DNA from: Candidatus Chloroploca sp. Khr17
GTDB lineage: Bacteria > Chloroflexota > Chloroflexia > Chloroflexales > Chloroflexaceae
NCBI RefSeq assembly: GCF_004138165.1
Contig: NZ_RYFF01000012.1
Location: forward strand, 1-64,000
Reading direction: 5' to 3'
DNA length: 64,000 bases
Below are positions 42,715 through 59,416 of the stretch, one piece after another; positions within the stretch are counted from its first letter, which is position 1; each line of letters begins with the position of its first letter. The position numbers were made by a program, and so were the translations under genes. The notes beneath the pieces are model-generated. The model searched no databases and was not told where the DNA came from. It was given only the letters and a program-made list of their open reading frames with translations.

Positions 42715-45288
42715 ATGAAGAGTACACGTCTGCCAACCCAACTCGAGACGGCTCGCCAAGAGATCGAAGCCATCGCCCGTGCGTATGGGCTCGATTTCTT
42801 CCCGATCCTCTATGAGGTGCTCGATTATCGCACCCTCTATGAGACTGCGGCCTTCGGCGGCTTTCCTACCCGCTATCCCCACTGGCGCTTTGGCATGGAT
42901 TTTGACCAGTTGCTCAAGGGCCATGTCTGGGCCGGCTCGACAATCTATGAGATGGTGATCAATACCAATCCTTCCTATGCCTATCTGCTCGAAGGCAATG
43001 AGGATGTCACCCAGAAGATGGTCATGGCCCACGTGACCGGCCACGTCGATTTCTTCAAACATAATATGTGGTTTGCCCATACCAATCGCAAGATGCTTGA
43101 TGCGATGGCAAATCACGCAACCCGTATCCAGCGCATTATTGACCGCGTGGGCTATGATCTCGTTGAGAGTTTTATTGATACCTGTCTCTCGCTCGAGAAT
43201 CTGATCGATTACCATTCGCCCTATATCCGCCGCCCTGAAGCCCAGACCCATCGCCCGATTGTCGGTGAGGATGAACCTGATCTGGTCGAGGGTCTCAAGG
43301 TTGACCGTGAGTATATGCGCGGGTATATCAATCCCCCCGAGTACCTCGAAGATCAGCGCAAGAAACTCGATACGGAACGCGCGAAACAGCGTCGCTTTCC
43401 TGAAAATCCGCAGCGCGATATCCTGCTCTTTCTCATGAATTATGCGCCCCTCGAGCGCTGGCAACATACGGTGCTCGAGATTGTTCGCGATGAGGCTTAC
43501 TATTTCGCGCCCCAGGGCATGACCAAGATCCTCAATGAGGGCTGGGCCTGCCTCACCGGTACGGCGTTGCTCTTTACCGAAGAGGGGTTGCTGCCCCTCG
43601 CCGAGGTGGTGCAGCGTCAGTTGTCGCTGCGCACCGCCGATGGCAGTCAACCCCAACGGATCTACGATTGGGCTACCTTTGCTGATTATCCGACGATCAA
43701 ATTGACCACCAACCGCGGCTTCCAACTCGAAGGCTCGGTCAACCATCGTGTGCGGCTCGCCGATGGCGCGTGGCGGCGCCTCGATCAACTCCAACCCGGT
43801 GACCAGGTGCAACTCGCCGGCGGTCAGGGTCTCTGGGCTTCGACGTATGCCCGCCTCAGTCCTGCTTCACCTGCTGTGCTCGATGAGCCGCTCGCGGCGT
43901 TGCTGGGTTATCTCGCCAACCACAAGCTGCATCTCAAGGTCGCTTCAGTTGACGAGGCCGACGACGAGCCGCTCTTCGCCGCGTCGAAGCATACCCGTTG
44001 GCAGGTGCCGCTAACCACGCTCGTCGCGCCACTGACGGTGACAACCCGTGACGTGGCCTGCGTCCAGACGCTGCTTGCGTATGCAGCGCAGTGCCCCGAT
44101 GTTGCGTTGGTTACCCACGATGATGGCGCGCAGTGGCAGATCGTGCTCGAGGGGGGTGAAGCCGCGCCCACGCTGCACCAGGTTGTTGCTGCACAGGTGA
44201 TCCCCGCCTCGATCATGTGCTCGCCAAAGCCGGTGGTCGCCAGTTTCCTGCGGGGTCTCTATGACGCCAACGGGGATGTCTCGCCGCAGGGCGCCGTGCT
44301 CTTCACCAGGGAGGCGACCTTTAGCCAGCATGTGCAACTGCTCTTGCTCAACTTTGGCCTCCTCAGCAACAACCAGCAACAGCCTGATGGCACCTGGCAG
44401 ATCAGCATCACGGGGGCCTCGCTCCGCACGTTTGCCGACCAGATTGGCTTTGCCCAACCCGCCAAAACGCAGGCGCTGCAGAACATCCTCGCCAGTCAGC
44501 CTACGCTTGCCCCCGCACCCTGGACAGATACCGTGGTCACGCTTGCGCCTGGCCGCGCCGATGTCTACGACATCTCGGTGGAAGTCACGCATCGGTATGC
44601 CGCGCAAGGTCTGATCAACCACAATAGCTATTGGCACTCGACGATCATGACCCAGCACGTTGCCGACGCCTCTGAAATCATCTCGTTCGCCGATCTCCAT
44701 AGCGGGGTCGTCGCAACCAGCGGAGGACGGCTCAACCCCTACAAAGTGGGCCTCGAACTGCTGCGCGATATCGAAGATCGCTGGAATAAAGGCAAGTTCG
44801 GCAAAGAATACGATGAATGCGACGACCTTGCCGCCAAACGCACCTGGGATCGTGGGCTTGGCCTCGGTCGCCAGAAGATCTTCGAGGTGCGCAAGCTCTA
44901 TAACGACGTCACTTTCATCGACGAATTTCTCACCCCCGAATTTGTCATCGAAAACAAGCTCTTTACCTTCCGCTACAACCGAGACACCGATCTCTACGAA
45001 ATCGCCTCACGCGAATTCCGCGAGATCAAAGAGAAGTTGCTCTTCCGTCTCACCAACTTCGGGCAGCCCTCGATCATCGTCGAAGACGGCAACTACAACA
45101 ACCGGGGCGAGCTCTATCTTCGCCATCGTCACGAAGGCGTCGATCTGAAGATGGACTATGCGCGGGATACGATGCGCAACCTGCATCGCATCTGGACACG
45201 CCCGATCCACCTCGAGACTATCATCGACGACAAAAAGCGCTTGCTCTCCTTCGATGGCAGTGATTTCACCGAACGCCGCATTGATTAG
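42715..45288 (+). CDS. spoVR: SpoVR family protein interrupted by an intein
   Basis: A precursor of 857 residues that should splice to a 498-residue SpoVR. Extein 1 (1-278) covers AYGLDFFPILYEVLDYRTLYETAAFGGFPTRYPHWRFGM and ends KILNEGWA. Extein 2 (638-857) begins SYWHSTIMTQH and ends in the IIDDKKRLLSFDGSDF region. Joined, they restore the highly conserved SpoVR block NEGWA-SYWH. SpoVR proteins function with PrkA and YeaH in spore cortex or stress physiology; the exact biochemistry is not settled. It is the third gene of this operon, 23 nt after the DUF444 gene, with prmC starting 3 nt after its stop. The interruption is in frame with no sign of decay in the splice blocks. Confidence 0.95.
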   Translation: MKSTRLPTQLETARQEIEAIARAYGLDFFPILYEVLDYRTLYETAAFGGFPTRYPHWRFGMDFDQLLKGHVWAGSTIYEMVINTNPSYAYLLEGNEDVTQKMVMAHVTGHVDFFKHNMWFAHTNRKMLDAMANHATRIQRIIDRVGYDLVESFIDTCLSLENLIDYHSPYIRRPEAQTHRPIVGEDEPDLVEGLKVDREYMRGYINPPEYLEDQRKKLDTERAKQRRFPENPQRDILLFLMNYAPLERWQHTVLEIVRDEAYYFAPQGMTKILNEGWACLTGTALLFTEEGLLPLAEVVQRQLSLRTADGSQPQRIYDWATFADYPTIKLTTNRGFQLEGSVNHRVRLADGAWRRLDQLQPGDQVQLAGGQGLWASTYARLSPASPAVLDEPLAALLGYLANHKLHLKVASVDEADDEPLFAASKHTRWQVPLTTLVAPLTVTTRDVACVQTLLAYAAQCPDVALVTHDDGAQWQIVLEGGEAAPTLHQVVAAQVIPASIMCSPKPVVASFLRGLYDANGDVSPQGAVLFTREATFSQHVQLLLLNFGLLSNNQQQPDGTWQISITGASLRTFADQIGFAQPAKTQALQNILASQPTLAPAPWTDTVVTLAPGRADVYDISVEVTHRYAAQGLINHNSYWHSTIMTQHVADASEIISFADLHSGVVATSGGRLNPYKVGLELLRDIEDRWNKGKFGKEYDECDDLAAKRTWDRGLGLGRQKIFEVRKLYNDVTFIDEFLTPEFVIENKLFTFRYNRDTDLYEIASREFREIKEKLLFRLTNFGQPSIIVEDGNYNNRGELYLRHRHEGVDLKMDYARDTMRNLHRIWTRPIHLETIIDDKKRLLSFDGSDFTERRID
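43549..44625 (+). other. Intein in SpoVR (359 residues)
   Basis: Residues 279-637 of the precursor. Block A is CLTGTALLFTEEGLLPLAEVV, starting at the nucleophile Cys279. Block B is GSVNHRVRLADGAWRRL. The C-terminal blocks are RADVYDISVEVTHRYAAQGLINHN, then Ser638 as the +1 nucleophile. The central 200 residues are a LAGLIDADG endonuclease domain: LAALLGYLANHKLHL is the first, degenerate motif lacking its acidic residue, and FLRGLYDANGDV is the second, with Asp retained. Splicing should work; cutting is probably impaired. Confidence 0.93.
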
Positions 45289-47869: not shown

Positions 47870-47887
47870 AATGAACTGGCCTACTTG

Positions 47888-47896
47888 TGCTACAAT
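47888..47896 (+). promoter_or_regulatory. Extended -10 TGCTACAAT before ccmA
   Basis: TGCTACAAT is 7 nt before the probable GTG start of ccmA, so the transcript may be leaderless. The same nonamer precedes ccmC (49356) and the thioredoxin fusion gene (55076). Confidence 0.5.
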
Positions 47897-47902
47897 CCCT
47901 GT

Positions 47903-48526
47903 GTGGACATTCGACTAATAGTTGAAGAAGTTGCCGCCAGCTATGGTGCCCGCGATGTCTTTGCCGAGGTGTCGGTCGAGTTGTGCGCGGGCGAAACGAT
48001 GGTGGTCAGCGGACAGAACGGCAGTGGCAAGAGTACCTTTTTGCGCCTGCTGGCCGGCTTGCAACGGGCCGATGCCGGCCAGATCACCTATCTGGTCGGC
48101 AATGAGGCCTTTGACCCGCGTGATGCCGGGCACCTCATTGGCTGGGTGGCCCCCGATCTGATGCTCTATCGGGATCTCACCGCCCGCGAGAACTTGCGCT
48201 TTTTCGCTGCCGTACGCCGGATCAGCCTTGATGATCAGGCTATCGATGAGGTGCTCGCCCGGGTTGGGCTTGCCGGGCGCAGCGATGACCGCCTCGCGGC
48301 CTATTCATCGGGGATGACCCAACGCATGCGCTATGCCTATGCCCTGATCCACCAACCACCCGTGCTCTTGCTTGATGAGCCAACCGTCACGCTTGATGAA
48401 CGCGGGGCCGAGGTGGTTGACACTGTGATCAAGGCCCAGCGCCGCCACGGCATTGTGGTCATTGCCACCAATGACCCCCGCGAACTGCGCTACGGCGATC
48501 TTGTGTTAGAGTTTGGGGGCACCTGA
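47903..48526 (+). CDS. ccmA: Haem exporter ATPase CcmA
   Basis: The ATP-binding subunit of the CcmABCD complex that releases holo-CcmE in system I cytochrome c maturation. It is 207 residues long with GQNGSGKST as Walker A, YSSGMTQRMRYAYAL as signature and VLLLDEPTVTLDE as Walker B. The signature is the short SSGM type seen in CcmA rather than LSGGQ. I chose GTG 47903 (MDIRLIVEEV); a longer frame opens at ATG 47885 but reads through the -10 element. Its stop overlaps the ccmB ATG region (TGATGG). Confidence 0.9.
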   Translation: MDIRLIVEEVAASYGARDVFAEVSVELCAGETMVVSGQNGSGKSTFLRLLAGLQRADAGQITYLVGNEAFDPRDAGHLIGWVAPDLMLYRDLTARENLRFFAAVRRISLDDQAIDEVLARVGLAGRSDDRLAAYSSGMTQRMRYAYALIHQPPVLLLDEPTVTLDERGAEVVDTVIKAQRRHGIVVIATNDPRELRYGDLVLEFGGT

Positions 48527-49287
48527 TGGCCGGGCATTCAAGTACCGAACAAGATCCTGGTCTGACGTTGACCACCCAGCAACCAGTAGCGCAACAGCGT
48601 ATCGTTGACCTCTTGCAGGCAGCATGGGCGGTCTTTGTCAAAGATCTGCGGATCGAACTGCGCACCCGTTATGCCATCAATGCGATGGTTCTCTTTGCGG
48701 CCTGTACCGCTATGATGGTGAGCATCGGGACGACGTTTATCGGGTTACGGCGCACCGAAGAGGCTCTCCTGATCCAGGCCTCGCTCCTCTGGATTGCGCT
48801 GCTCTTTGCGGCCATCAGTGGCCTGTCGCGGGGCTTTGTTCACGAAGAGGAGACGCGCACCCTCGCGGCCTTGCGGCTTGCCGCACCAGCGCTTGCCGTC
48901 TACCTGGGCAAATTCTTGCTCAATCTCGCCCTGCTTGCCCTGCTTGGCCTCATCACGAGCCTGCTCTTCATCGTGCTTGTGCGCGTCCAAGTCGGGAGTC
49001 CCCTGGCCTTTCTCGGCATGCTCGCCGCAGGTGGCCTCAGTCTTGCGACTTCCACCACGATCCTTGCGGCTATTATCACGCGGGCCAGTTTCAAGAATGC
49101 GCTCTTTGCTGTGCTTGCCTTTCCCCTCCTTGTGCCTCCGCTGATCATCGCCATTCAAGGCACCGCTGCGACGCTTGCCGAAGGTGGCTGGTTACCTGCC
49201 TTGCCTGCCCTGCAATTCCTGATCGCCTACAGCGTCGCCATGTTCGTCGCATCATTGCTACTCTTTCGCTTTGTCTGGGAAGCGTAG
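48526..49287 (+). CDS. ccmB: Haem exporter membrane subunit CcmB
   Basis: The six-helix membrane subunit of CcmABCD, 253 residues. After a polar N-terminus come VFVKDLRIELRTRYAINAMVLFA, a typical CcmB opening, then SRGFVHEEETRTLAALRLAAPALAVYLGKFL, the conserved cytoplasmic loop that meets the ATPase. The C-terminal helices include AFPLLVPPLIIAIQG. The N-terminal leader of about 30 residues is longer than usual. Overlap with ccmA by one base shows co-translation. The 190-nt gap to ccmC has two -10-like boxes but no gene. Confidence 0.9.
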   Translation: MAGHSSTEQDPGLTLTTQQPVAQQRIVDLLQAAWAVFVKDLRIELRTRYAINAMVLFAACTAMMVSIGTTFIGLRRTEEALLIQASLLWIALLFAAISGLSRGFVHEEETRTLAALRLAAPALAVYLGKFLLNLALLALLGLITSLLFIVLVRVQVGSPLAFLGMLAAGGLSLATSTTILAAIITRASFKNALFAVLAFPLLVPPLIIAIQGTAATLAEGGWLPALPALQFLIAYSVAMFVASLLLFRFVWEA

Positions 49288-49396: not shown

Positions 49397-49477
49397 GTCC
49401 TTTGAGCGGAAATGTGACAATGCATACCTCTGGTATGTCGCAGCATGACACATGTCTGGTTCTGGAAAGGTACATCT

Positions 49478-50443
49478 ATGGTGCAGCAGATGGCCCAGGT
49501 CGGCAAACTGCTCATCGGGCTCTGGATGGCTGGCGTGACCATCGTGATGTTTCTGGTGATTCCTCAGTACGAGGGGTTGGGCAATGCGGGGCGCATTATC
49601 ATTATGCATGTGCCAACCGCCTGGGTCAGTGTGCTGGCGTTTGCCATCTCGGCTATCTTTAGTGGTCTCTACCTCTGGAAGCGCAAGCCTACCTATGATG
49701 ATTATGCCGTCGCCGCCGCCGAGGGGGGCTTTCTCTTTACCGCCCTCGCAACGGTGACCGGCATGATCTTTTCGCAGGTCGTCTGGGGCATCTACTGGAA
49801 CTGGGATCCACGCCAGACCTCTATTTTTGTGCTCTTGCTAATCTACGCCGCACTCTTTGCGCTGCGCGCCGCCATTGATGATGTGCAACGCCGTCGCCAA
49901 CTCAGTGCGGCCTATTCACTCTTTGCCTTTGTCACCGTACCCTTCTTGATCTTTGTCGCCCCCCGCATCGCTGATAGCACCCTGCATCCTAACTGTGTCT
50001 TTATCCAGGGCAGTACCTGCGATGGCATTAGCCTCGATGTGGGCATGATCGGCTTGCTCGGCGACCGCAAGATCCAGTTGATCGGGATGGAACGCGAAGG
50101 CGATCTGGTGACTGCCGAGGTGATCGTCAGTGAGCCCGGTTTGAGTGGTGAGACAACGCTGCGACCCAGTTTCAATCTGGCAACCGGCACCATGGCCGAT
50201 CGCCCCGAGTTTCCTGGCCTCCGGTATCAACTGGGCCTTGAATATGTCGATCCTTCAATAAACAGTGGGTTGTTGAATATCGAAGCCCCTGGAACCGGCT
50301 TGCTCGATAATCAGATCACCCTCTTTACGTTTCTCGCCTCGATTGCCGGTTTTACGGCGCTCTTTGTCTGGATGCTCAATCTACGCGCCGATCTGCTGGG
50401 GCTTCAGTGGGCTCTGGCTCAGCGTGATGGAGGTCGTGTATGA
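49478..50443 (+). CDS. ccmC: Haem handling protein CcmC
   Basis: The core protein that presents haem to CcmE, 321 residues with six helices. The tryptophan-rich haem motif reads VVWGIYWNWDPRQT; conserved His residues lie in MHVPTAWVSV and the later periplasmic loop (THL-type, here ADSTLHPN). Between helices 5 and 6 there is an added exported segment of about 110 residues (CVFIQGSTCDGISL to NIEAPGTGLL) absent from most CcmC proteins, whose usual length is near 240. ATG 49478 is chosen because AAAGG lies 8 nt upstream. It overlaps ccmD by ATGA. Confidence 0.9.
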   Translation: MVQQMAQVGKLLIGLWMAGVTIVMFLVIPQYEGLGNAGRIIIMHVPTAWVSVLAFAISAIFSGLYLWKRKPTYDDYAVAAAEGGFLFTALATVTGMIFSQVVWGIYWNWDPRQTSIFVLLLIYAALFALRAAIDDVQRRRQLSAAYSLFAFVTVPFLIFVAPRIADSTLHPNCVFIQGSTCDGISLDVGMIGLLGDRKIQLIGMEREGDLVTAEVIVSEPGLSGETTLRPSFNLATGTMADRPEFPGLRYQLGLEYVDPSINSGLLNIEAPGTGLLDNQITLFTFLASIAGFTALFVWMLNLRADLLGLQWALAQRDGGRV

Positions 50444-50679: not shown

Positions 50680-51090
50680 ATGTCTACCACATCAATGACG
50701 CACGTTGCTCGGCGTGGTTTTGAACTGAAGCCCCTCCACATTGCGGGTCTCGGCATTATTGTGCTTGCCATCATCTATGGTATCTTTGGCTTCCAGAATG
50801 GCTTCCGTTCCTATACCCAGAGCATTGATGAAGCGGTTGCGGCCACCCGCAGCGTGCAACTCTCGGGTTTTCTGGGGAGTACGGGTGAGTATGATGAGCA
50901 GGGACGTTTTACCTTCCTGATTCAGGATGAGCACGGCAAGTTGCTCAAGGTCATCTCGCAGGAGCCACGTCCATCCAATTTCGAGCACGCCATTAGCATT
51001 GTTGCGATTGGACAGTACGACCCGGCTGAGCAGGCTTTTATGTCCGAGCAACTGCTGGTCAAGTGCCCTTCGAAATATCAGGAACAGTAG
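50680..51090 (+). CDS. ccmE: Haem chaperone CcmE, CX3Y variant
   Basis: The periplasmic haem chaperone, 136 residues. One helix (about 20-38) is followed by an OB-fold beta domain (VQLSGFLGSTGEYDEQGRFTFLIQD). In classical CcmE the haem is bound covalently to His in HxxxY; here the motif is LLVKCPSKYQEQ with Cys129-X3-Tyr133. The Cys variant is known from archaea and some delta-proteobacteria. The protein is short beyond the motif. It lies between ccmD and ccmF. Confidence 0.9.
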   Translation: MSTTSMTHVARRGFELKPLHIAGLGIIVLAIIYGIFGFQNGFRSYTQSIDEAVAATRSVQLSGFLGSTGEYDEQGRFTFLIQDEHGKLLKVISQEPRPSNFEHAISIVAIGQYDPAEQAFMSEQLLVKCPSKYQEQ

Positions 51091-51123: not shown

Positions 51124-53523
51124 ATGTATCTTCTCGGCACATTTTTGCTTGTCATGTCACTAGCAATGGCCCTGCTGACGGTGGTGAGTTATGCCCTGGT
51201 CATTCGGGGCAATCGGCTTGCGCTGACCTATGGACGCTTTGGGGTCTATGCATCCCTGGCTGGCGTTGTTATGGTCTATAGCCTGTTGATCACGCTCTTT
51301 GTGGCCCGCCGTTTCGATATCGAGTATGTCAACAACTATAGTTCGCTTGACCTCAATTTCTTTTTCACCGTTGCCGCCAGTTGGGCCGGGCAACCAGGCA
51401 GTTTCTTGATCTGGATTCTCTGGGGGGCCATTGCCGCTGCGCTGCTGGTACGTCGTTCGAAACATTTTGAGCCCTATACGCTCTTGGTCATTCAGGCGAT
51501 CCAGGCCGGTTTGCTGATCTTTGTACTGATCCTCAATCCATTCAAGCCCTTGCTTGATGCTACCACAGGGCTGGCGCTGACCCCCGCTGATGGGCGCGGG
51601 CTCAATCCGTTGCTCCACAATTTCTGGATGATTATTCACCCGCCCGTGCTCTTTATCGGGTATGCCCTCAGTATGATCCCGTTTGCGTTTGCGGTGGGGG
51701 CCCTAGTGCGCCGCGATTATGATACCTGGGTTACCCGGGCGCTGCCGTGGGTGATCGGGGCGTGGTCGTTTCTTGGCCTGGCGCTCTTGCTCGGTGGCTA
51801 CTGGGCCTACGAGACCCTCGGTTGGGGGGGCTATTGGGGCTGGGATCCCGTCGAGAATTCGTCGCTCGTGCCCTGGATCATTCTCACCGCCTTGATGCAC
51901 GGCATGGTGCAGCAACGCAGCCACGGTGGCCTGCGGAAGACCAATCTCGCGCTGGCGCTCACGGTCTATGTGACGGTCTTTTATGCAACGTTCCTTACCC
52001 GCAGCGGGGTCTATGCCAACTTCTCAGTGCATTCGTTTGTCGCCGAGGGCATCTTTGAGGGTCTGGTGGCGTTTCTGGTGTTGCTTGCCGTTGGTTCCAT
52101 CGCGCTCTTCTTCTGGCGGTGGCGCGATATTCCTGCCAACCCGCTAAGCGACAAATTCTTTTCGCGTGATAGCTTCTTTGTGCTTGCCATTCTCTCGTTC
52201 CTGCTCGTGGCCCTTGTGATTAGCACCGGTACATCAATGCCAGTGATCTCGGCTATTCCTGGGGTCGGCCATACGCTGCAGGGCTGGATGGGGGCAACTT
52301 TCGAGATTGATGATGGCACGCTGATGAATCCACAAGCACAGCCCTTTGAGGATGGGCGCTTTAGCCTCGCTCCAAGTTTCTATCAGCAGACAACCCCGCC
52401 CCTCGGGCTGGTCATCATTGTGTTGATGACCCTCGGCCCGTTGATGGGGTGGCGTGATAGCAACATGCGCAATCTCTTACGTGCGCTGCGCTGGCCTGCC
52501 GTGGCGGCGGTGCTTGCCGCAATTGTCGCTATGTTCATTGATGTCCGCGATCTGTTGTCGCTCTTCTATGTTTCGGGGGCGACCTTTGCAATCGGAACCA
52601 ACCTGGTGATGCTGCTGCGGACGCTGAAAGGCGGTTGGTTGCGCATCGGTGGCTATCTCGCCCACATGGGTTTTGCGGTGATGGCAATCGGCATGATTGG
52701 CTCGAGTGCCTATGCCACGCCCGAAACTCGCTTGAGCCTCGCCCCCGGTGAGAGCGCCCGTCTCTTTGGGTACGAATTTATCTTCAATGGCTATCAGCTT
52801 GATGAAGAGCAGCATGGCGTGCTCGATTTCAGTGTCAGTGATGGCACCCGTACCTTTACTGCGCGGCCCTATCTCTATGAGAATCAGCAGATGGGCCTGA
52901 CAACAACGCAGCCATCAATCCATAGCTTCTTCTGGCACGACCTCTATGTGTCGCCAGCCGGCTATGATCCCGAACGTGATGCAAGCCGTCCGGTTCTCGG
53001 TCAGGGTGAAACAACCAGTATTGGCCCGTATATCGTCACGTTCAACGGGTTTAATCTTGATACCGCCGCAATGTCCAGTGGTACCGGCAATATGCAGGTT
53101 GGCGCACAGTTGACGGTGCTCTATGAAGGTGAGCAACTTGAGGTTGAGCCATATGTCCGTGTTGCGGTCAATCCAACGACTGCCGAGCAAGAACTGATTT
53201 ATGTACCTGCCGAATTGCCAGGCGGCGCGTCGTTAACCGTCGTATCGCTTGACCCTGCCTCGCGCCGCATCTTGCTTGAAGGAAGCGGCACCGGGCTCGA
53301 AAATCTGCCCGTTATTCCCGCCAAGGGGGTGATTGCGGTCAGCGTCAAGCCCCTCGTCGTGCTGGTGTGGGTGGGAGTGATTATGAGCATTGTCGGTGGC
53401 TTCATCGCCCTGGTGCGCCGGTACCTCGAAGGGAGCGCAATGCTCGCGGGTGTACGCGTACGCCTGCCCAAAGGCCTCCCGAGTTGGACCCCGCGTCTGG
53501 GTTCACGTGGCGTTGGCAAATAG
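51124..53523 (+). CDS. ccmF: Cytochrome c haem lyase subunit CcmF
   Basis: A large membrane protein of 799 residues and about 14 helices that ligates haem from CcmE to apocytochrome c. The WWD domain is YETLGWGGYWGWDPVENSSLVPW. Further haem-handling blocks are LLHNFWMIIHPPVLFIGYA and THLTRSG-like ATFLTRSGVYANFSVHSF. It is longer than E. coli CcmF (about 650). The extra length is mainly the exported segment at about 540-740 (RLSLAPGESARLFGYEFIFNGY onward), followed by a final helix. It lies 34 nt after ccmE. Confidence 0.95.
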   Translation: MYLLGTFLLVMSLAMALLTVVSYALVIRGNRLALTYGRFGVYASLAGVVMVYSLLITLFVARRFDIEYVNNYSSLDLNFFFTVAASWAGQPGSFLIWILWGAIAAALLVRRSKHFEPYTLLVIQAIQAGLLIFVLILNPFKPLLDATTGLALTPADGRGLNPLLHNFWMIIHPPVLFIGYALSMIPFAFAVGALVRRDYDTWVTRALPWVIGAWSFLGLALLLGGYWAYETLGWGGYWGWDPVENSSLVPWIILTALMHGMVQQRSHGGLRKTNLALALTVYVTVFYATFLTRSGVYANFSVHSFVAEGIFEGLVAFLVLLAVGSIALFFWRWRDIPANPLSDKFFSRDSFFVLAILSFLLVALVISTGTSMPVISAIPGVGHTLQGWMGATFEIDDGTLMNPQAQPFEDGRFSLAPSFYQQTTPPLGLVIIVLMTLGPLMGWRDSNMRNLLRALRWPAVAAVLAAIVAMFIDVRDLLSLFYVSGATFAIGTNLVMLLRTLKGGWLRIGGYLAHMGFAVMAIGMIGSSAYATPETRLSLAPGESARLFGYEFIFNGYQLDEEQHGVLDFSVSDGTRTFTARPYLYENQQMGLTTTQPSIHSFFWHDLYVSPAGYDPERDASRPVLGQGETTSIGPYIVTFNGFNLDTAAMSSGTGNMQVGAQLTVLYEGEQLEVEPYVRVAVNPTTAEQELIYVPAELPGGASLTVVSLDPASRRILLEGSGTGLENLPVIPAKGVIAVSVKPLVVLVWVGVIMSIVGGFIALVRRYLEGSAMLAGVRVRLPKGLPSWTPRLGSRGVGK

Positions 53524-53631: not shown

Positions 53632-54726
53632 ATGCAAGATTACTACGAGACTCTGCAAGTCCACCCCAAAGCCGAGCCTGAGGCCATCGAGGCAGCCTAT
53701 CTTCGTCTACGAGAGCGGTATGATCCGGCCAAACTTGAAGCGGCTGCCGATGAGATTCAGGCCCTAGCACGTCAGCGACGCAACGAGATCGAACAAGCTT
53801 ACGCTGTTTTGCGCGATCCACAACGACGCGAGGCCTATGATCACGAACGCACGCAGCGTCAGCATGAATTGCCCGAAGGCGATGACGATGACGATGCCAT
53901 TGACTATCGTCCTTTGCCTCCGGCAGGGCGTCGTGAACGACCCGAAGGCTTCGACGCTCAGCCCAAAGGCCGTGCATCACGGTCTGCCCAGTCCCAGAAA
54001 GGCCGCCCGACCAAGCGTGGTGCAGGCGGGCTACCGGTTTGGGTTGTCCCCGCATTGATCGTCGGCCTGGCGACGTTTGGCATTGTGATGACAACGCTCG
54101 TGATCACCTTGCTCAACTCGAATAACGCGCTTGCCCCGGCAGCAGGGCCGCAAGGCTTTGAGAGTTTGACGACACCAACAGCCGAAGCGACCCCTAGCCT
54201 CGACACGGTCATTGCCCAGTTCGAGGGGCAGGTTGTGGCGGCACGCCAGGTTGCCGAACGGGTGCCCGATAATTTCAATGCGTGGATCGAACTCGGCAAT
54301 GCCCTGTATGACAGCGTGGTCGTCGTACGCGAACGGCTCGCACGAGGCGACCCCACCGCACGCCAGGTCTATATTGAACGCCTCCCGCGCTGGCTTGAGG
54401 CTGCCGATGCTTATGCCAAAGCGGCTGAACTTGACCCGCAGAGTGCGCTGGCCTATGCCGATATGGCCGCTAGCTTCTGCTACTATGGGCAAGATATCAG
54501 CGACATGAGTTATGTCGAGCAAGGCCTTGCGCATGCCAAAAAAGCACTTGAGCTTGATGCAAGCGAAGGGCGCGCCTTGCTCAGTGCCGGCATCTGTTAT
54601 GCCTTCAACGAGCCGCCACAGATCACCGAAGCCCTTGCCCAATGGCAGATGCTGGTCGTGACGCCCGACGCGGAGCCAAACCTCGTCTTTCAGGCGCGCC
54701 AGTTGATCCAGGAATACAGCCGTTAG
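53632..54726 (+). CDS. Degenerate J-domain / membrane helix / TPR-like protein (CcmI-like)
   Basis: A 364-residue membrane protein. Residues 1-72 have a clear J-domain fold (DYYETLQVHPKAEPEAIEAAYLRLRERY ... IEQAYAVLRDPQRREAYD). The catalytic HPD is replaced by Asp31-Pro32-Ala33, so Hsp70 stimulation is not expected. A charged disordered linker precedes one helix (about 135-161). The exported C-terminal half (about 190-360) has TPR-like helix pairs (FNAWIELGNALYDSVV, WLEAADAYAKAAELDPQSALAYADMAASF, AKKALELDASEGRALLSAGICYAF). An exported TPR after a membrane helix matches CcmI/NrfG, which hold apocytochrome. It follows ccmF by 108 nt and its sister gene follows it. Confidence 0.8.
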   Translation: MQDYYETLQVHPKAEPEAIEAAYLRLRERYDPAKLEAAADEIQALARQRRNEIEQAYAVLRDPQRREAYDHERTQRQHELPEGDDDDDAIDYRPLPPAGRRERPEGFDAQPKGRASRSAQSQKGRPTKRGAGGLPVWVVPALIVGLATFGIVMTTLVITLLNSNNALAPAAGPQGFESLTTPTAEATPSLDTVIAQFEGQVVAARQVAERVPDNFNAWIELGNALYDSVVVVRERLARGDPTARQVYIERLPRWLEAADAYAKAAELDPQSALAYADMAASFCYYGQDISDMSYVEQGLAHAKKALELDASEGRALLSAGICYAFNEPPQITEALAQWQMLVVTPDAEPNLVFQARQLIQEYSR

Positions 54727-54750
54727 GAAATAGGAAATAGGAAATAGGAA
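54724..54750. repeat. Heptamer array TAGGAAA, 3 copies plus part
   Basis: Three TAGGAAA units plus TAGGAA. The array begins with the stop codon TAG of the preceding gene, so the coding end and the repeat are one. Confidence 0.92.
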
Positions 54751-54776
54751 GTTAGGGCGGGTGTAGGCCTCAGACA

Positions 54777-54830
54777 TGGCGCTTCGTGAGGGGGATGCTG
54801 GCGGGGTGCCCTCACGAAGCGCCAGTTTTA
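54777..54830 (+). terminator. Terminator with 16-bp perfect stem
   Basis: tggcgcttcgtgaggg (54777-54792) and its exact complement (54809-54824) around 16 nt, followed by GTTTTA. It probably ends the ccm-TPR transcript. The following 54831-55103 hold no gene but two small hairpins (gtcggccttcgccgac and ggccacgaaggtggcc). Confidence 0.8.
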
Positions 54831-55075
54831 CCCCGCCTCATAGGGCAATTGGCATCTTCTGTTCTTCCGTGCCGTCAAAGCATCAGAATGCCCCCCTGCG
54901 GCCAGACCGTTGGCGTAAACGCCTCGGCTATGGTGGACGAAGTCGGCCTTCGCCGACTGGATCAGGCCACGAAGGTGGCCTTTGCTGCCCAGCAGCCGCG
55001 CCGTTTACGGCCACGGCAAGAAGATGCAATCGCCCGAAAGACCATAAGGCAGGGGTTCAAAAAGATAAAAGCTCA

Positions 55076-55084
55076 TGCTACAAT
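55076..55084 (+). promoter_or_regulatory. Extended -10 TGCTACAAT before thioredoxin fusion gene
   Basis: TGCTACAAT lies 19 nt before the start at 55104 and matches the elements before ccmA and ccmC. No clear -35 is present. Confidence 0.5.
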
Positions 55085-55103
55085 GATAAGCGGAGTAGAT
55101 GAT

Positions 55104-55940
55104 ATGGTCACATATTATACGCTTCTGGGTATCGAGCCAGGGGCAAGTGACGACACAATTGCCAAAGCGTATGCGCGTCAACGCGAACGGTATAGCCCTG
55201 AACGGGTTTCCGAACTTGATCCTGAACTGGTCAAAGTCGCAACCGAACGCAGCGCTGAACTTGAACGCGCCTATCGGGTTTTGAGTGACCCGCAGCGGCG
55301 CCAGGCCTACGACGCAAGCCTCCAGATGAAGCAACCCACCGCTAGTGGGGATCGCCGGGGGCTAACCCCACGCGAAATCGGCTTTGCGATCACCGGTGTC
55401 CTGGCAGCGATCATTCTTGTGACAACGATCTGGATCGTGACCGGTGGTGAAAGCCAACCCGAGACCCAGGCGATGGCAGAAATGCGGCGAGCCGCCCCTA
55501 GCTTCGCTGCACCAACGCTCGACGGAAGCACGCTCAACCTGGAAGCGTATCGTGGCAAGGTTGTTCTGCTCAACTTCTGGGGAACTTGGTGTGAGCCATG
55601 CAAACGTGAACTGCCCGCCTTGCAGGCCGCCCATAACGACCTTAGCGATCAGGGGTTTGCGGTCATCGGCGTCAACCTGACGCGCGATGAATTGAGCCAG
55701 GGACAGGATACCGATGATGTTCAGGCTTTTCTTGATCAATATGGGGTGACGTTCCCTATTGTGCTCGATCTTGAAGGTGACATCACCAATGCCTATCGCG
55801 TCTTTCCCTTGCCAACTAGTTTCTTTATCGATCCCGAGGGGCAGATTCGTTATGTCCATATCAGTGAGCTAAAGTATAACGACATTGTTAGTCGTTTTAC
55901 CGAGCTCAAAGGGGAAGCGTCAGCCCTTGAGACGCCATAA
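55104..55940 (+). CDS. Degenerate J-domain / membrane helix / TlpA-type thioredoxin fusion (CcmG-like)
   Basis: A 278-residue membrane protein. Residues 1-72 are a J-like domain (YYTLLGIEPGASDDTIAKAYARQRERY ... ELERAYRVLSDPQRRQAYD) in which HPD reads Ser31-Pro32-Glu33, again without the catalytic His and Asp. One helix spans about 92-113. The exported part is a TlpA/ResA/CcmG thioredoxin (APSFAAPTLDGSTLNLEAYRGKVVLLNFWGTWCEPCKRELP, Cys163 and Cys166; cis-Pro in PLPTSFFID). Its likely work is to keep apocytochrome CxxCH cysteines reduced. The start is set by GGAG 8 nt upstream of ATG 55104. The response regulator follows after 15 nt. Confidence 0.85.
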   Translation: MVTYYTLLGIEPGASDDTIAKAYARQRERYSPERVSELDPELVKVATERSAELERAYRVLSDPQRRQAYDASLQMKQPTASGDRRGLTPREIGFAITGVLAAIILVTTIWIVTGGESQPETQAMAEMRRAAPSFAAPTLDGSTLNLEAYRGKVVLLNFWGTWCEPCKRELPALQAAHNDLSDQGFAVIGVNLTRDELSQGQDTDDVQAFLDQYGVTFPIVLDLEGDITNAYRVFPLPTSFFIDPEGQIRYVHISELKYNDIVSRFTELKGEASALETP

Positions 55941-55955: not shown

Positions 55956-56636
55956 ATGGAAAAGCGTACAATCCTCGTTGTTGACGATGACCAGAACCTG
56001 CGAGATTTGATCCGGATCAATCTGGAATACGAGGGTTTCAAAGTCCTGACCGCAACCAATGGTGTAGAGTGCATCACCACTGTACGCGAGCATCGTCCCG
56101 ATATGATTCTGCTCGATCTCATGATGCCTGAAATGGATGGGCTGGAAGCCTGTCGCCGGATTCGGCAATTTTCCCAGTTGCCGATTCTGATGCTGACCGC
56201 CAAGGTGCAGAGCAACGATATCATTACCGGGCTGGATCATGGGGCCGATGATTATCTGGCCAAGCCCTTTGACGTTGACGAACTGGCCGCCCGGATCCGC
56301 GCCCTCTTGCGCCGTGTCCCCCCTTCGTACCGCCCACTCACCGCCGGCAAAGGGGAGATCACCATTGACCAGCAGGCGCGTGAAGTGATGGTGCGCGGTG
56401 AACTGATTGATTTGACGCCAACCGAATACCATCTGCTGATCATTCTGGCAGAAAAAGCCGGGGCGGTGGTCGATCACGAGACCCTGCTCAGAGCAGTCTG
56501 GGGTCAGGAATTTAGCCGCGACAACGATTATCTCAAGGTCTATATCTGGCATCTGCGCCGCAAGCTTGAACAGGATCCGCGCAAGCCCCGCTTGCTCCTC
56601 ACCGAGTGGGGGGTCGGCTACCGTCTGATGGCATGA
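55956..56636 (+). CDS. OmpR/PhoB family response regulator
   Basis: A two-component transcription regulator of 226 residues. The receiver domain has the acidic pocket VVDDDQNLRDL, the phospho-acceptor Asp54 in ILLDLMMPEMDG, Thr in LMLTAK and Lys in YLAKPF. The C-terminal winged-helix domain has LIDLTPTEYHLLIILAEKAGAVVDHETLLRAVWG and NDYLKVYIWHLRRKLEQDP. No kinase lies next to it; its closeness to the thioredoxin fusion gene (15 nt) suggests redox- or respiration-linked control. The nearby hybrid kinase at 59518 could be a partner, but that is unproven. Confidence 0.95.
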   Translation: MEKRTILVVDDDQNLRDLIRINLEYEGFKVLTATNGVECITTVREHRPDMILLDLMMPEMDGLEACRRIRQFSQLPILMLTAKVQSNDIITGLDHGADDYLAKPFDVDELAARIRALLRRVPPSYRPLTAGKGEITIDQQAREVMVRGELIDLTPTEYHLLIILAEKAGAVVDHETLLRAVWGQEFSRDNDYLKVYIWHLRRKLEQDPRKPRLLLTEWGVGYRLMA

Positions 56637-58819: not shown

Positions 58820-59416
58820 CTACAGCCGAACAAGCAGACCAAGGCCCACAAAGACCAGGATTGTCACGACCACAATGACCACCGCCGCAAGGCGTGAGCC
58901 ACGACGACCCTGCGCAGAAGGCACCGGAGCCCCTGCAAGGGCATAGTTGCCTAGCATAACACTGATCAGCCCAAAGGCGACCAGCGCCAGGAACGGGATC
59001 TTGATAAAAGAGAGTGGCCCGGTCAAAAGAGGGGTCAAGTAATCAATACCACATGGAACAAGACCGGCACAAGCCGTTGGCGGAATAATCTGGATCACTT
59101 GCAGGTAATGGTAGAGCGACAAGACGATGCCTGACAGCGAGAACGGCAACCCATACCAGGCAAGCCCCCGATCATCACGCAGGATGCCCACCAGCAAGAC
59201 AACCGCAAGGGGATACATCAAAATGCGTTGATACCAGCAGAGTTCACAAGGTATCCAGCGTAACACTTCACTGAAATAGAGGCTGCCGCACGTCGCAATC
59301 ATTGCACTTAGCAGGGCAATATGACGGGTTGCTGCCGTAAGCGCTTCTAACAAACTGCCCTGTTCATCCGCTGATTCACGTGATGTCGCGGCAGCATCCT
59401 GTGCCACTTGCGCCAT
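58820..59416 (-). CDS. Disulfide bond formation protein DsbB/BdbC
   Basis: A 198-residue membrane oxidoreductase that passes electrons from periplasmic thiol oxidases to quinone. Four helices carry the two Cys pairs: IPCELCWYQRILMYPLAV with CxxC, and PTACAGLVPCGIDYLTP with the second pair. CELCWYQR is the family signature. A fifth C-terminal hydrophobic helix (LAAVVIVVVTILVFVGLGLLV) is extra. No dsbA lies in this window. It complements the thioredoxin fusion protein, since cytochrome c maturation needs balanced oxidation and reduction of Cys residues. Confidence 0.9.
   Translation of the reverse strand: MAQVAQDAAATSRESADEQGSLLEALTAATRHIALLSAMIATCGSLYFSEVLRWIPCELCWYQRILMYPLAVVLLVGILRDDRGLAWYGLPFSLSGIVLSLYHYLQVIQIIPPTACAGLVPCGIDYLTPLLTGPLSFIKIPFLALVAFGLISVMLGNYALAGAPVPSAQGRRGSRLAAVVIVVVTILVFVGLGLLVRL

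Follow-up and report, generated by a model that had tools for sequence, protein, structure and literature searches.

The DNA analysed here, a stretch of 64,000 nucleotides from the genome of a filamentous bacterium, Candidatus Chloroploca (order Chloroflexales; hereafter the window), carries a cytochrome c maturation locus in which two genes follow ccmF, the gene for the heme ligase. The first encodes a membrane protein that joins a J-like domain to a TPR domain (J-TPR), and the second a membrane protein that joins a J-like domain to a ResA/TlpA thioredoxin domain (J-TlpA). We consider it probable that the pair supplies accessory parts to System I*, the variant Ccm system of this order, with CcmI-like and ResA/CcmG-like functions, and that its J folds act as non-catalytic docking modules in the cytosol.

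The two proteins share one design, as the original prediction had proposed: open reading frames (ORFs), family profiles and AlphaFold models agree on a J-like domain, one transmembrane (TM) helix and an exported effector that differs between the two (Table 1). The Pfam DnaJ profile matched residues 3-70 of J-TPR with 42.8 bits and residues 10-77 of J-TlpA with 50.0 bits, the latter in P0002 numbering, which is that of the J-TlpA protein model; the cut-off is 27.8 bits. AlphaFold predicted the J fold with block pLDDT values of 93-98 over residues 1-70 of J-TPR and 11-80 of J-TlpA (P0002), the mean pLDDT of the whole models being 85.8 and 90.9, respectively. Each protein contains one hydrophobic stretch, beyond which the models show a TPR fold in J-TPR and a thioredoxin fold in J-TlpA. 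An AhpC-TSA/ResA-type thioredoxin profile was matched in J-TlpA, while the TPR sequence match of the window J-TPR is weak (TPR_17, 25.3 bits; cut-off 24.4) and becomes clearer at the level of the family. A topology with the J-like domain inside and the effector outside is suggested by the single hydrophobic stretch, by the basic stretch that J-TPR has before it and by the kind of effector in each protein. Since the arrangement recurs through the whole order, we do not regard it as a product of chance.

Table 1. Features of the ccm locus and of the gene pair behind ccmF, in window positions
Feature	Position	Strand	Basis or remark
J-TPR protein, 364 aa: predicted cytosolic J-like domain, linker, one TM helix, predicted exported TPR domain	53632..54726	+	ORF, family profiles, alignment, AlphaFold
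J-like domain of J-TPR; HPD site DPA (residues 31-33); helices 4-8, 16-29, 40-61, 63-79	53638..53841	+	PF00226, AlphaFold
Juxtamembrane motif DYRPLPPA of J-TPR, residues 91-98	53902..53925	+	Alignment
TM helix of J-TPR, residues 138-161	54043..54114	+	AlphaFold, hydrophobic stretch
TPR domain of J-TPR, residues 190-362	54199..54717	+	Profile, AlphaFold, fold search
J-TlpA protein, 278 aa from ATG 55104 (ATG 55083 possible alternative): J-like domain, one TM helix, ResA/TlpA thioredoxin	55104..55940	+	ORF, family profiles, alignment, AlphaFold
J-like domain of J-TlpA; HPD site SPE; helices 11-15, 23-36, 47-68, 70-83 (P0002)	55110..55313	+	PF00226, AlphaFold
TM helix of J-TlpA, residues 96-120 (P0002)	55368..55442	+	AlphaFold, hydrophobic stretch
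ResA/TlpA thioredoxin domain of J-TlpA; CEPC 55590-55601; Glu at +3 after second Cys 55608-55610	55476..55898	+	Profiles, structural relatives, motif count
ccmA, heme exporter ATPase	47885..48526	+	TIGR01189 134.3 bits (cut-off 131.6)
ccmB	48526..49287	+	PF03379 58.8 bits
ccmC	49445..50443	+	PF01578 83.7 bits; TIGR01191 95.6 bits, under its cut-off of 186
ccmE, System I* type (CPSKY replaces HxxxY)	50680..51090	+	PF03100 40.7 bits; C-terminus CPSKYQEQ
ccmF, heme ligase	51124..53523	+	PF16327 100.4 bits, PF01578 96.2 bits
Hairpin, perfect 16-bp stem, then G and TTTT; possible terminator	54777..54824	.	DNA fold z -5.1
Dispersed repeat, ~195 bp, between J-TPR and J-TlpA	54841..55035	.	At least 41 other genome matches
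OmpR-type response regulator (named by sequence appearance)	55956..56636	+	After J-TlpA in 56/56 loci holding both, within 400 bp

J-TPR matches (E 1e-8) were found in 79 of 158 genomes of the class. Within the order, 76 of 82 genomes matched and 74 hold a true relative, the matches in G028 and G062 being J-domain cross-hits only; G018, G060, G061, G063, G073 and G080 have no J-TPR relative either. In a sample of 400 genomes from across the phylum, every full-length row among the matches listed comes from the order. The J-only matches inspected outside it are HPD-bearing J proteins, mostly with an HExxH-type end and with no ccmF in the fetched stretch, and two TM-TPR proteins lacking a J domain (L150, L151) had no ccmF within the fetched 12-15 kb. 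By eye, loci L141-L148, L155 and L157 from other genomes of the phylum form a family that combines an HPD-bearing J domain with hydrophobic stretches and a region resembling an HExxH metallopeptidase.

Wherever a J-TPR relative and a ccmF share a contig (69 of 69 genomes), the TPR gene comes immediately after a ccmF in the same orientation. This count joins 57 of 57 fetched loci holding both genes, within ~0.5 kb of each other (69 loci were examined), to 12 of 12 further genomes compared by coordinates, where G001 is matched at a contig edge and over the J end alone. Because the fetched loci had been picked around the pair, whereas the larger count was built from two separate genome searches, 69 of 69 is the fairer figure. 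The remaining 5 of the 74 genomes fall outside the comparison, either because no ccmF was found (G035, G048, G074) or because the two genes are on different contigs (G004, G075). The original prediction depended on a genomic tie between such J fusions and the ccm genes of Chloroflexota, and for the TPR gene this tie is order-wide. J-TlpA in turn lies downstream of the TPR gene within 1.3 kb in all 51 loci holding both, the gap measuring 0.8-1.3 kb in four of them.

Four genomes contain a second cluster (L134-L137), in which another ccmF is followed by another J-TlpA. In three of them a DsbD_TM/CcdA gene lies next to the pair, preceding ccmF in G056 and G062 and following J-TlpA in G053, and ccmF and J-TlpA overlap by four bases in L135 and L136. 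None of the four second-cluster J-TlpA proteins has an intact HPD, and ccmABCE were not present in the fetched stretches. This separate pairing with ccmF argues that J-TlpA serves cytochrome c assembly. As judged by eye, the L136 cluster continues into a CtaG-like gene.

System I*, a variant of the Ccm system with a CPSKY/CxxxY CcmE, was reportedly described by Allen et al. in 2006 (cited after PMC3601427). The cytochrome c maturation set of Chloroflexales is a System I*: it comprises ccmABCEF with a CPSKY-type CcmE and is without CcmH. CcmA, CcmB, CcmC and CcmF were all found in the window's locus, CPSKY, i.e., Cys in place of the heme-binding His, is present in CcmE at 56 of 56 loci, and ccmF (PF16327) was found in 76 of the 82 genomes of the order. 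CcmH (PF03918), noted as unseen in the original prediction, exceeded the cut-off in none of the 82, with one subthreshold match in G062; the same search was above cut-off in four known genomes. DsbD_TM/CcdA is present in 80 of 82 genomes, and ResB had no match in the genome of the window. In the available part of PMC3601427, Chloroflexi are named among the holders of System I*; of the bacteria that have the variant CcmE, about a third are reported to possess CcmH and about two thirds to lack it. As CcmH-less sets of this kind are thus already known, its absence needs no special explanation and no replacement. The same part of that source describes CcmG as absent or undetected in System I* and CcmI as appearing to enhance the system yet not being required (PMC3601427). 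Chloroflexales differ from that description in having a thioredoxin and a TPR protein behind ccmF, each with a J-like domain.

Judged by its sequence, the thioredoxin of J-TlpA is of the ResA type and not a classical CcmG. The closest solved structures are ResA entries. Of 36 family members, 27 have the active-site motif CEPC, and all 36 have Glu at +3 from the second Cys as well as a hydrophobic residue ahead of the cis-Pro, this residue being Leu in 22; the window protein has CEPC, the Glu and Leu-cisPro. As given in the accessible portion of PMC5909903, ResA is marked by CEPC, LcP and a key Glu80, and GVXGXPETF is proposed as a fingerprint of DsbD/ScsB partners. This CcmG fingerprint is found in 0 of the 36. 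J-TlpA thus resembles ResA of Bacillus subtilis, a System II protein, in these hallmarks, in its single TM anchor and in the CcdA-type gene present in the genome (PMC5909903, in part), but it differs in its N-terminal J-like domain, predicted to be cytosolic, in belonging to a System I* operon and in the lack of a ResB match in its own genome. It is also like CcmG/DsbE in being a TlpA-type thioredoxin, presumably exported, near ccmF, and is set apart from that family by the missing fingerprint and by a score under the DsbE model cut-off.

J-TPR likewise resembles CcmI, NrfG and the C-terminal part of CcmH in that it is a membrane-anchored and presumably exported TPR protein behind ccmF, and the CcmH/CycH TPR profile PF23914 matches 24 of 35 family members weakly, at E 0.1 or better (best 1.8e-7). 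According to the part of PMC3884852 available, the two TM helices of CcmI are separated by a cytoplasmic region. This layout, with a cytoplasmic region before the TPR part, is not seen in J-TPR, which has a single TM helix after its J-like domain. What supports the comparison with CcmI is position, topology and TPR fold, not sequence membership.

J domains are defined by the HPD motif, through which they stimulate DnaK. Of the marks of an active Hsp40, both proteins have the J fold and the Pfam DnaJ match, and neither has HPD. The site corresponds to residues 31-33 in both, provided that J-TlpA starts at ATG 55104. DPA and SPE at this site agree with the original prediction that His and Asp are lost and Pro is kept; across the family the Pro is less constant, being retained in 26 of 34 aligned J-bearing J-TPR rows. 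No intact HPD was found in the 55 J-TPR loci (55 of the 74 genomes) or in the 46 J-TlpA loci that have letters at the site, a number that includes four copies from the second clusters, so that relatives with an intact motif, which would have spoken against the prediction, did not appear among the loci examined. Outside these counts are the J-TlpA rows of L101, L103 and L110 (gaps at the site) and of L105 and L107 (J too faint for the profile), together with the J-less relatives. His is retained once in J-TPR, as HAE in L113, a broken frame. The HPD-bearing rows in the motif count were other J proteins of the window's own genome (L121, L122, L123 and L125); L124, a further J protein from that genome, has PPE.

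The J domains are nevertheless under purifying selection. In J-TPR, dN/dS of the J region was 0.00-0.18 in 16 of 17 close pairs, the other being saturated, and dN/dS of the linker was 0.05-0.43, above the J value in 13 of 15 comparable pairs and slightly under it in two (L096-L097 and L093-L095). For the J region of J-TlpA, dN/dS was 0.04-0.16 in 14 pairs. Not all of the pairs compared are independent. J-TPR has a mean pairwise identity of 57% in the J domain and 44% in the TPR domain, compared with 18-27% in the linkers. Low dN/dS and an identity higher than that of the linkers indicate that the J fold is maintained despite the loss of HPD, and because the motif is lost while the fold is kept by selection, the J folds are most likely non-catalytic docking modules. 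The best conserved cytosolic element of J-TPR lies outside the J domain: the juxtamembrane motif DYRPLPPA has a mean identity of 90%, and its D, P94 and L95 do not vary in any of the 35 aligned rows, one of which is a J-less Herpetosiphon-like relative. This conservation suggests that DYRPLPPA is probably the core docking element, to which the J domain was an addition.

We therefore favor, as probable, the following account of the pair as accessory System I* parts. The exported TPR domain of J-TPR, like CcmI, would hold unfolded apocytochrome c beside CcmF, while the exported thioredoxin of J-TlpA, like ResA or CcmG, would reduce the CXXCH disulfide ahead of heme attachment and be re-reduced by CcdA, so that a TPR holdase and a ResA-type reductase are both stationed at CcmF. 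The HPD-less cytosolic J folds, no longer driving Hsp70, would dock the proteins at a cytosolic or membrane partner, with DYRPLPPA on J-TPR as the prime docking candidate. The proposal in the original prediction that the pair replaces CcmI and CcmG stands insofar as a TPR protein and a thioredoxin of the apocytochrome-reductase type occupy the place that ccmI and ccmG have in System I. Its specifics need amending: the thioredoxin has ResA hallmarks without the CcmG fingerprint, and the missing CcmH needs no replacement.

Several results weigh against this account. A replacement for CcmG and CcmH is not strictly required, because holocytochrome is formed without CcmG under reducing conditions in Methanosarcina and because a Desulfovibrio System I* was functional in Escherichia coli without CcmG and CcmH (PMC9084895 and PMC3601427, available parts); System I* may thus not strictly need the functions proposed here. 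J-TlpA is located away from the ccmF-TPR pair in at least four genomes (G039, G040, G057 and G059), where the TPR gene still follows ccmF, which makes the TPR protein the firmer ccmF partner. In addition, the 7 kb that follow the ccmF of G028 (L129) hold no TPR gene, G028 having no TPR relative, and the second ccmF copies (L134-L139, of which L138 is in G051 and L139 in G055) are without a TPR gene. The ccmF genes of G018 and G060 lie at contig edges, and those of G061 and the extra copies of G062 lie outside the fetched loci.

The family assignments also fall short. The window J-TPR has no PF23914 match at E 1, other TPR proteins of the same genomes outscore J-TPR for this profile, and the two J-TPR rows among the matches listed (G012 and G009) are below its cut-off of 42 bits. 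Because other TPR proteins score higher, a PF23914 match is weak and unspecific evidence in these genomes, and we dropped CcmI membership by this profile. Foldseek and VIA-align of the TPR domain returned generic TPR, helical-repeat and 14-3-3 matches, with no CcmI/NrfG-specific fold among the matches listed. J-TlpA missed the cut-offs of both the ResA model (NCBIfam, 129.3 of 170 bits) and the DsbE model (TIGR00385, 63.0 of 123.15 bits); for this reason we describe it as working like ResA and do not class it as ResA. Nor is it the sole candidate extracytoplasmic reductant, since a second TlpA/ResA-like protein, without a J domain, is encoded elsewhere in the genome (C92:122639-123091). A full set of ccmG, ccmH and ccmI, which would bear on the replacement proposal, was not found elsewhere in the genome, with the limits that this J-less protein exists and that PF23914, matching many TPR proteins, does not serve to exclude a CcmI.

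We then considered whether the two J-like domains belong together. Pam16 (Tim16) is a membrane-bound complex component with an HPD-less J fold, and its partner Pam18 bears HPD. J-TPR and J-TlpA likewise carry HPD-less J folds in membrane proteins, but the motif is missing from both, whereas one partner keeps it in the Pam pair. By analogy with the Pam16/Pam18 heterodimer, which forms via J-type domains (PMC3806816, available part), the two J-like domains might pair and tie the TPR and thioredoxin proteins into one complex on a cytosolic partner, a reading that we consider rather unlikely. In favor of it, a tree places both J sets together on the same side of a branch (64 rows, support 93/90) and separates them from a phylum-wide sample of HPD-bearing J domains; when the HPD columns were removed, in an analysis that omitted L124 and L125, 42% of bootstrap trees recovered the grouping. 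A common origin of the two J domains was dropped, as it held only with those columns.

The distribution of the two domains is nested. The 51 loci that hold both genes divide into 39 where both proteins carry J, nine where only the TPR protein does and two where neither does, with none where only J-TlpA does; one is unscorable (L105, at a contig edge), leaving 50, and the 39 include L072 and L113 with a broken frame. This pattern fits a J domain on J-TlpA that relies on the one on J-TPR. The J domain of J-TPR is kept without the other in four genera (L088; L089-L090; L093-L095, L130 and L132; L100), and in Herpetosiphon-like genomes (L106 and L120) both are missing and the pair is still kept. 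The J of some J-TlpA relatives is faint, at 38-50 bits (L101, L103-L105, L107, L110 and L119). In a distance test across 19 genomes, the correlation between the two J domains did not exceed the species signal (partial r 0.07, p 0.24), and matched J-J coevolution was rejected as a candidate; nominal p values of 0.008-0.02 for J of J-TPR with the response regulator, TPR with CcmE and TPR with the response regulator were lost on correction for 15 tests. The tie through matching J-like domains that the original prediction inferred is weakened by these results. It is doubtful, too, that the two HPD-less J domains build, together with DYRPLPPA, a Pam16/Pam18-like clamp in the cytosol by which the exported apocytochrome-handling and reducing parts are coupled to the heme-export ATPase CcmAB or to the secretion machinery. 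If they did, control over the System I* of Chloroflexales would come from the cytosol. To our knowledge, such control has not been described for any cytochrome c maturation system.

It is unlikely that the pair is a general extracytoplasmic folding and redox set that lies behind ccmF by chance and is no cytochrome c factor. TPR proteins and ResA-type thioredoxins have many clients, the CcmI, ResA and DsbE family cut-offs were missed, and the module of J-TlpA and the response regulator can sit away from ccmF; against this stand the adjacency of ccmF and the TPR gene in every testable genome and the second cluster of ccmF and J-TlpA, with ccdA adjoining in three of its four genomes. Quite unlikely is a reading in which the J folds are functionless relics or spacers and only the exported parts matter. 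The variable HPD site, the faint J of some J-TlpA relatives and the fact that J-TlpA has no J in four genera and neither protein has one in Herpetosiphon-like genomes would fit relics, but dN/dS of at most 0.18 for the J region of J-TPR in all 16 scorable pairs, mostly under that of the linker, its identity far above that of the linkers and its confidently predicted fold do not. It is highly improbable that the J domains, without HPD, have some other, non-standard means of recruiting DnaK, since the defining DnaK-stimulating motif is missing in every scorable relative examined, even though the sequences of helices II and III are largely kept and the fold is predicted intact.

J-TPR and J-TlpA are nearly adjacent in several related genera. 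In the window, the stretch between them holds the hairpin and the dispersed repeat listed in Table 1; the repeat matches other sites of the same genome with 70-87% identity, their number being a lower bound, as 40 of 182 first-look candidates were scored. A formal terminator scan, which considers loops of 3-8 only, reported none at the hairpin. A promoter-like site with an extended -10 lies at 55056-55084, before ATG 55104 (three sites found by the promoter scan versus 1.1 expected). Because of this site and the hairpin with TTTT behind J-TPR, J-TlpA may be transcribed separately in this genome. The response regulator gene stays behind J-TlpA even where the two lie away from ccmF. By eye, a DsbB-like protein is encoded on the minus strand at 58820-59416, ~3 kb downstream of J-TlpA, with a homologue at the same place in two other Chloroploca genomes (L061 and L062), and a SpoVR-like ORF at 42715-45288 appears to carry an intein-like insertion.

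A literature search found no paper joining Chloroflexus, cytochrome c maturation and CcmF, and the pair was not found among the matches listed for DnaJ-thioredoxin fusions in Chloroflexus and for Chloroploca cytochrome c biogenesis. The component parts are of known kinds, and in the literature searched we found no description of their combination. As a gene pair found behind ccmF throughout the order, J-TPR and J-TlpA are concrete candidates, open to test, for the steps of System I* in which apocytochrome is handled and reduced. The thioredoxin would be a reductant of a kind that System I* often seems to lack, and the pair makes that gap testable. Finally, the pair presents a J fold kept by selection after the loss of the defining J-protein motif, on two unrelated exported effectors of one operon.

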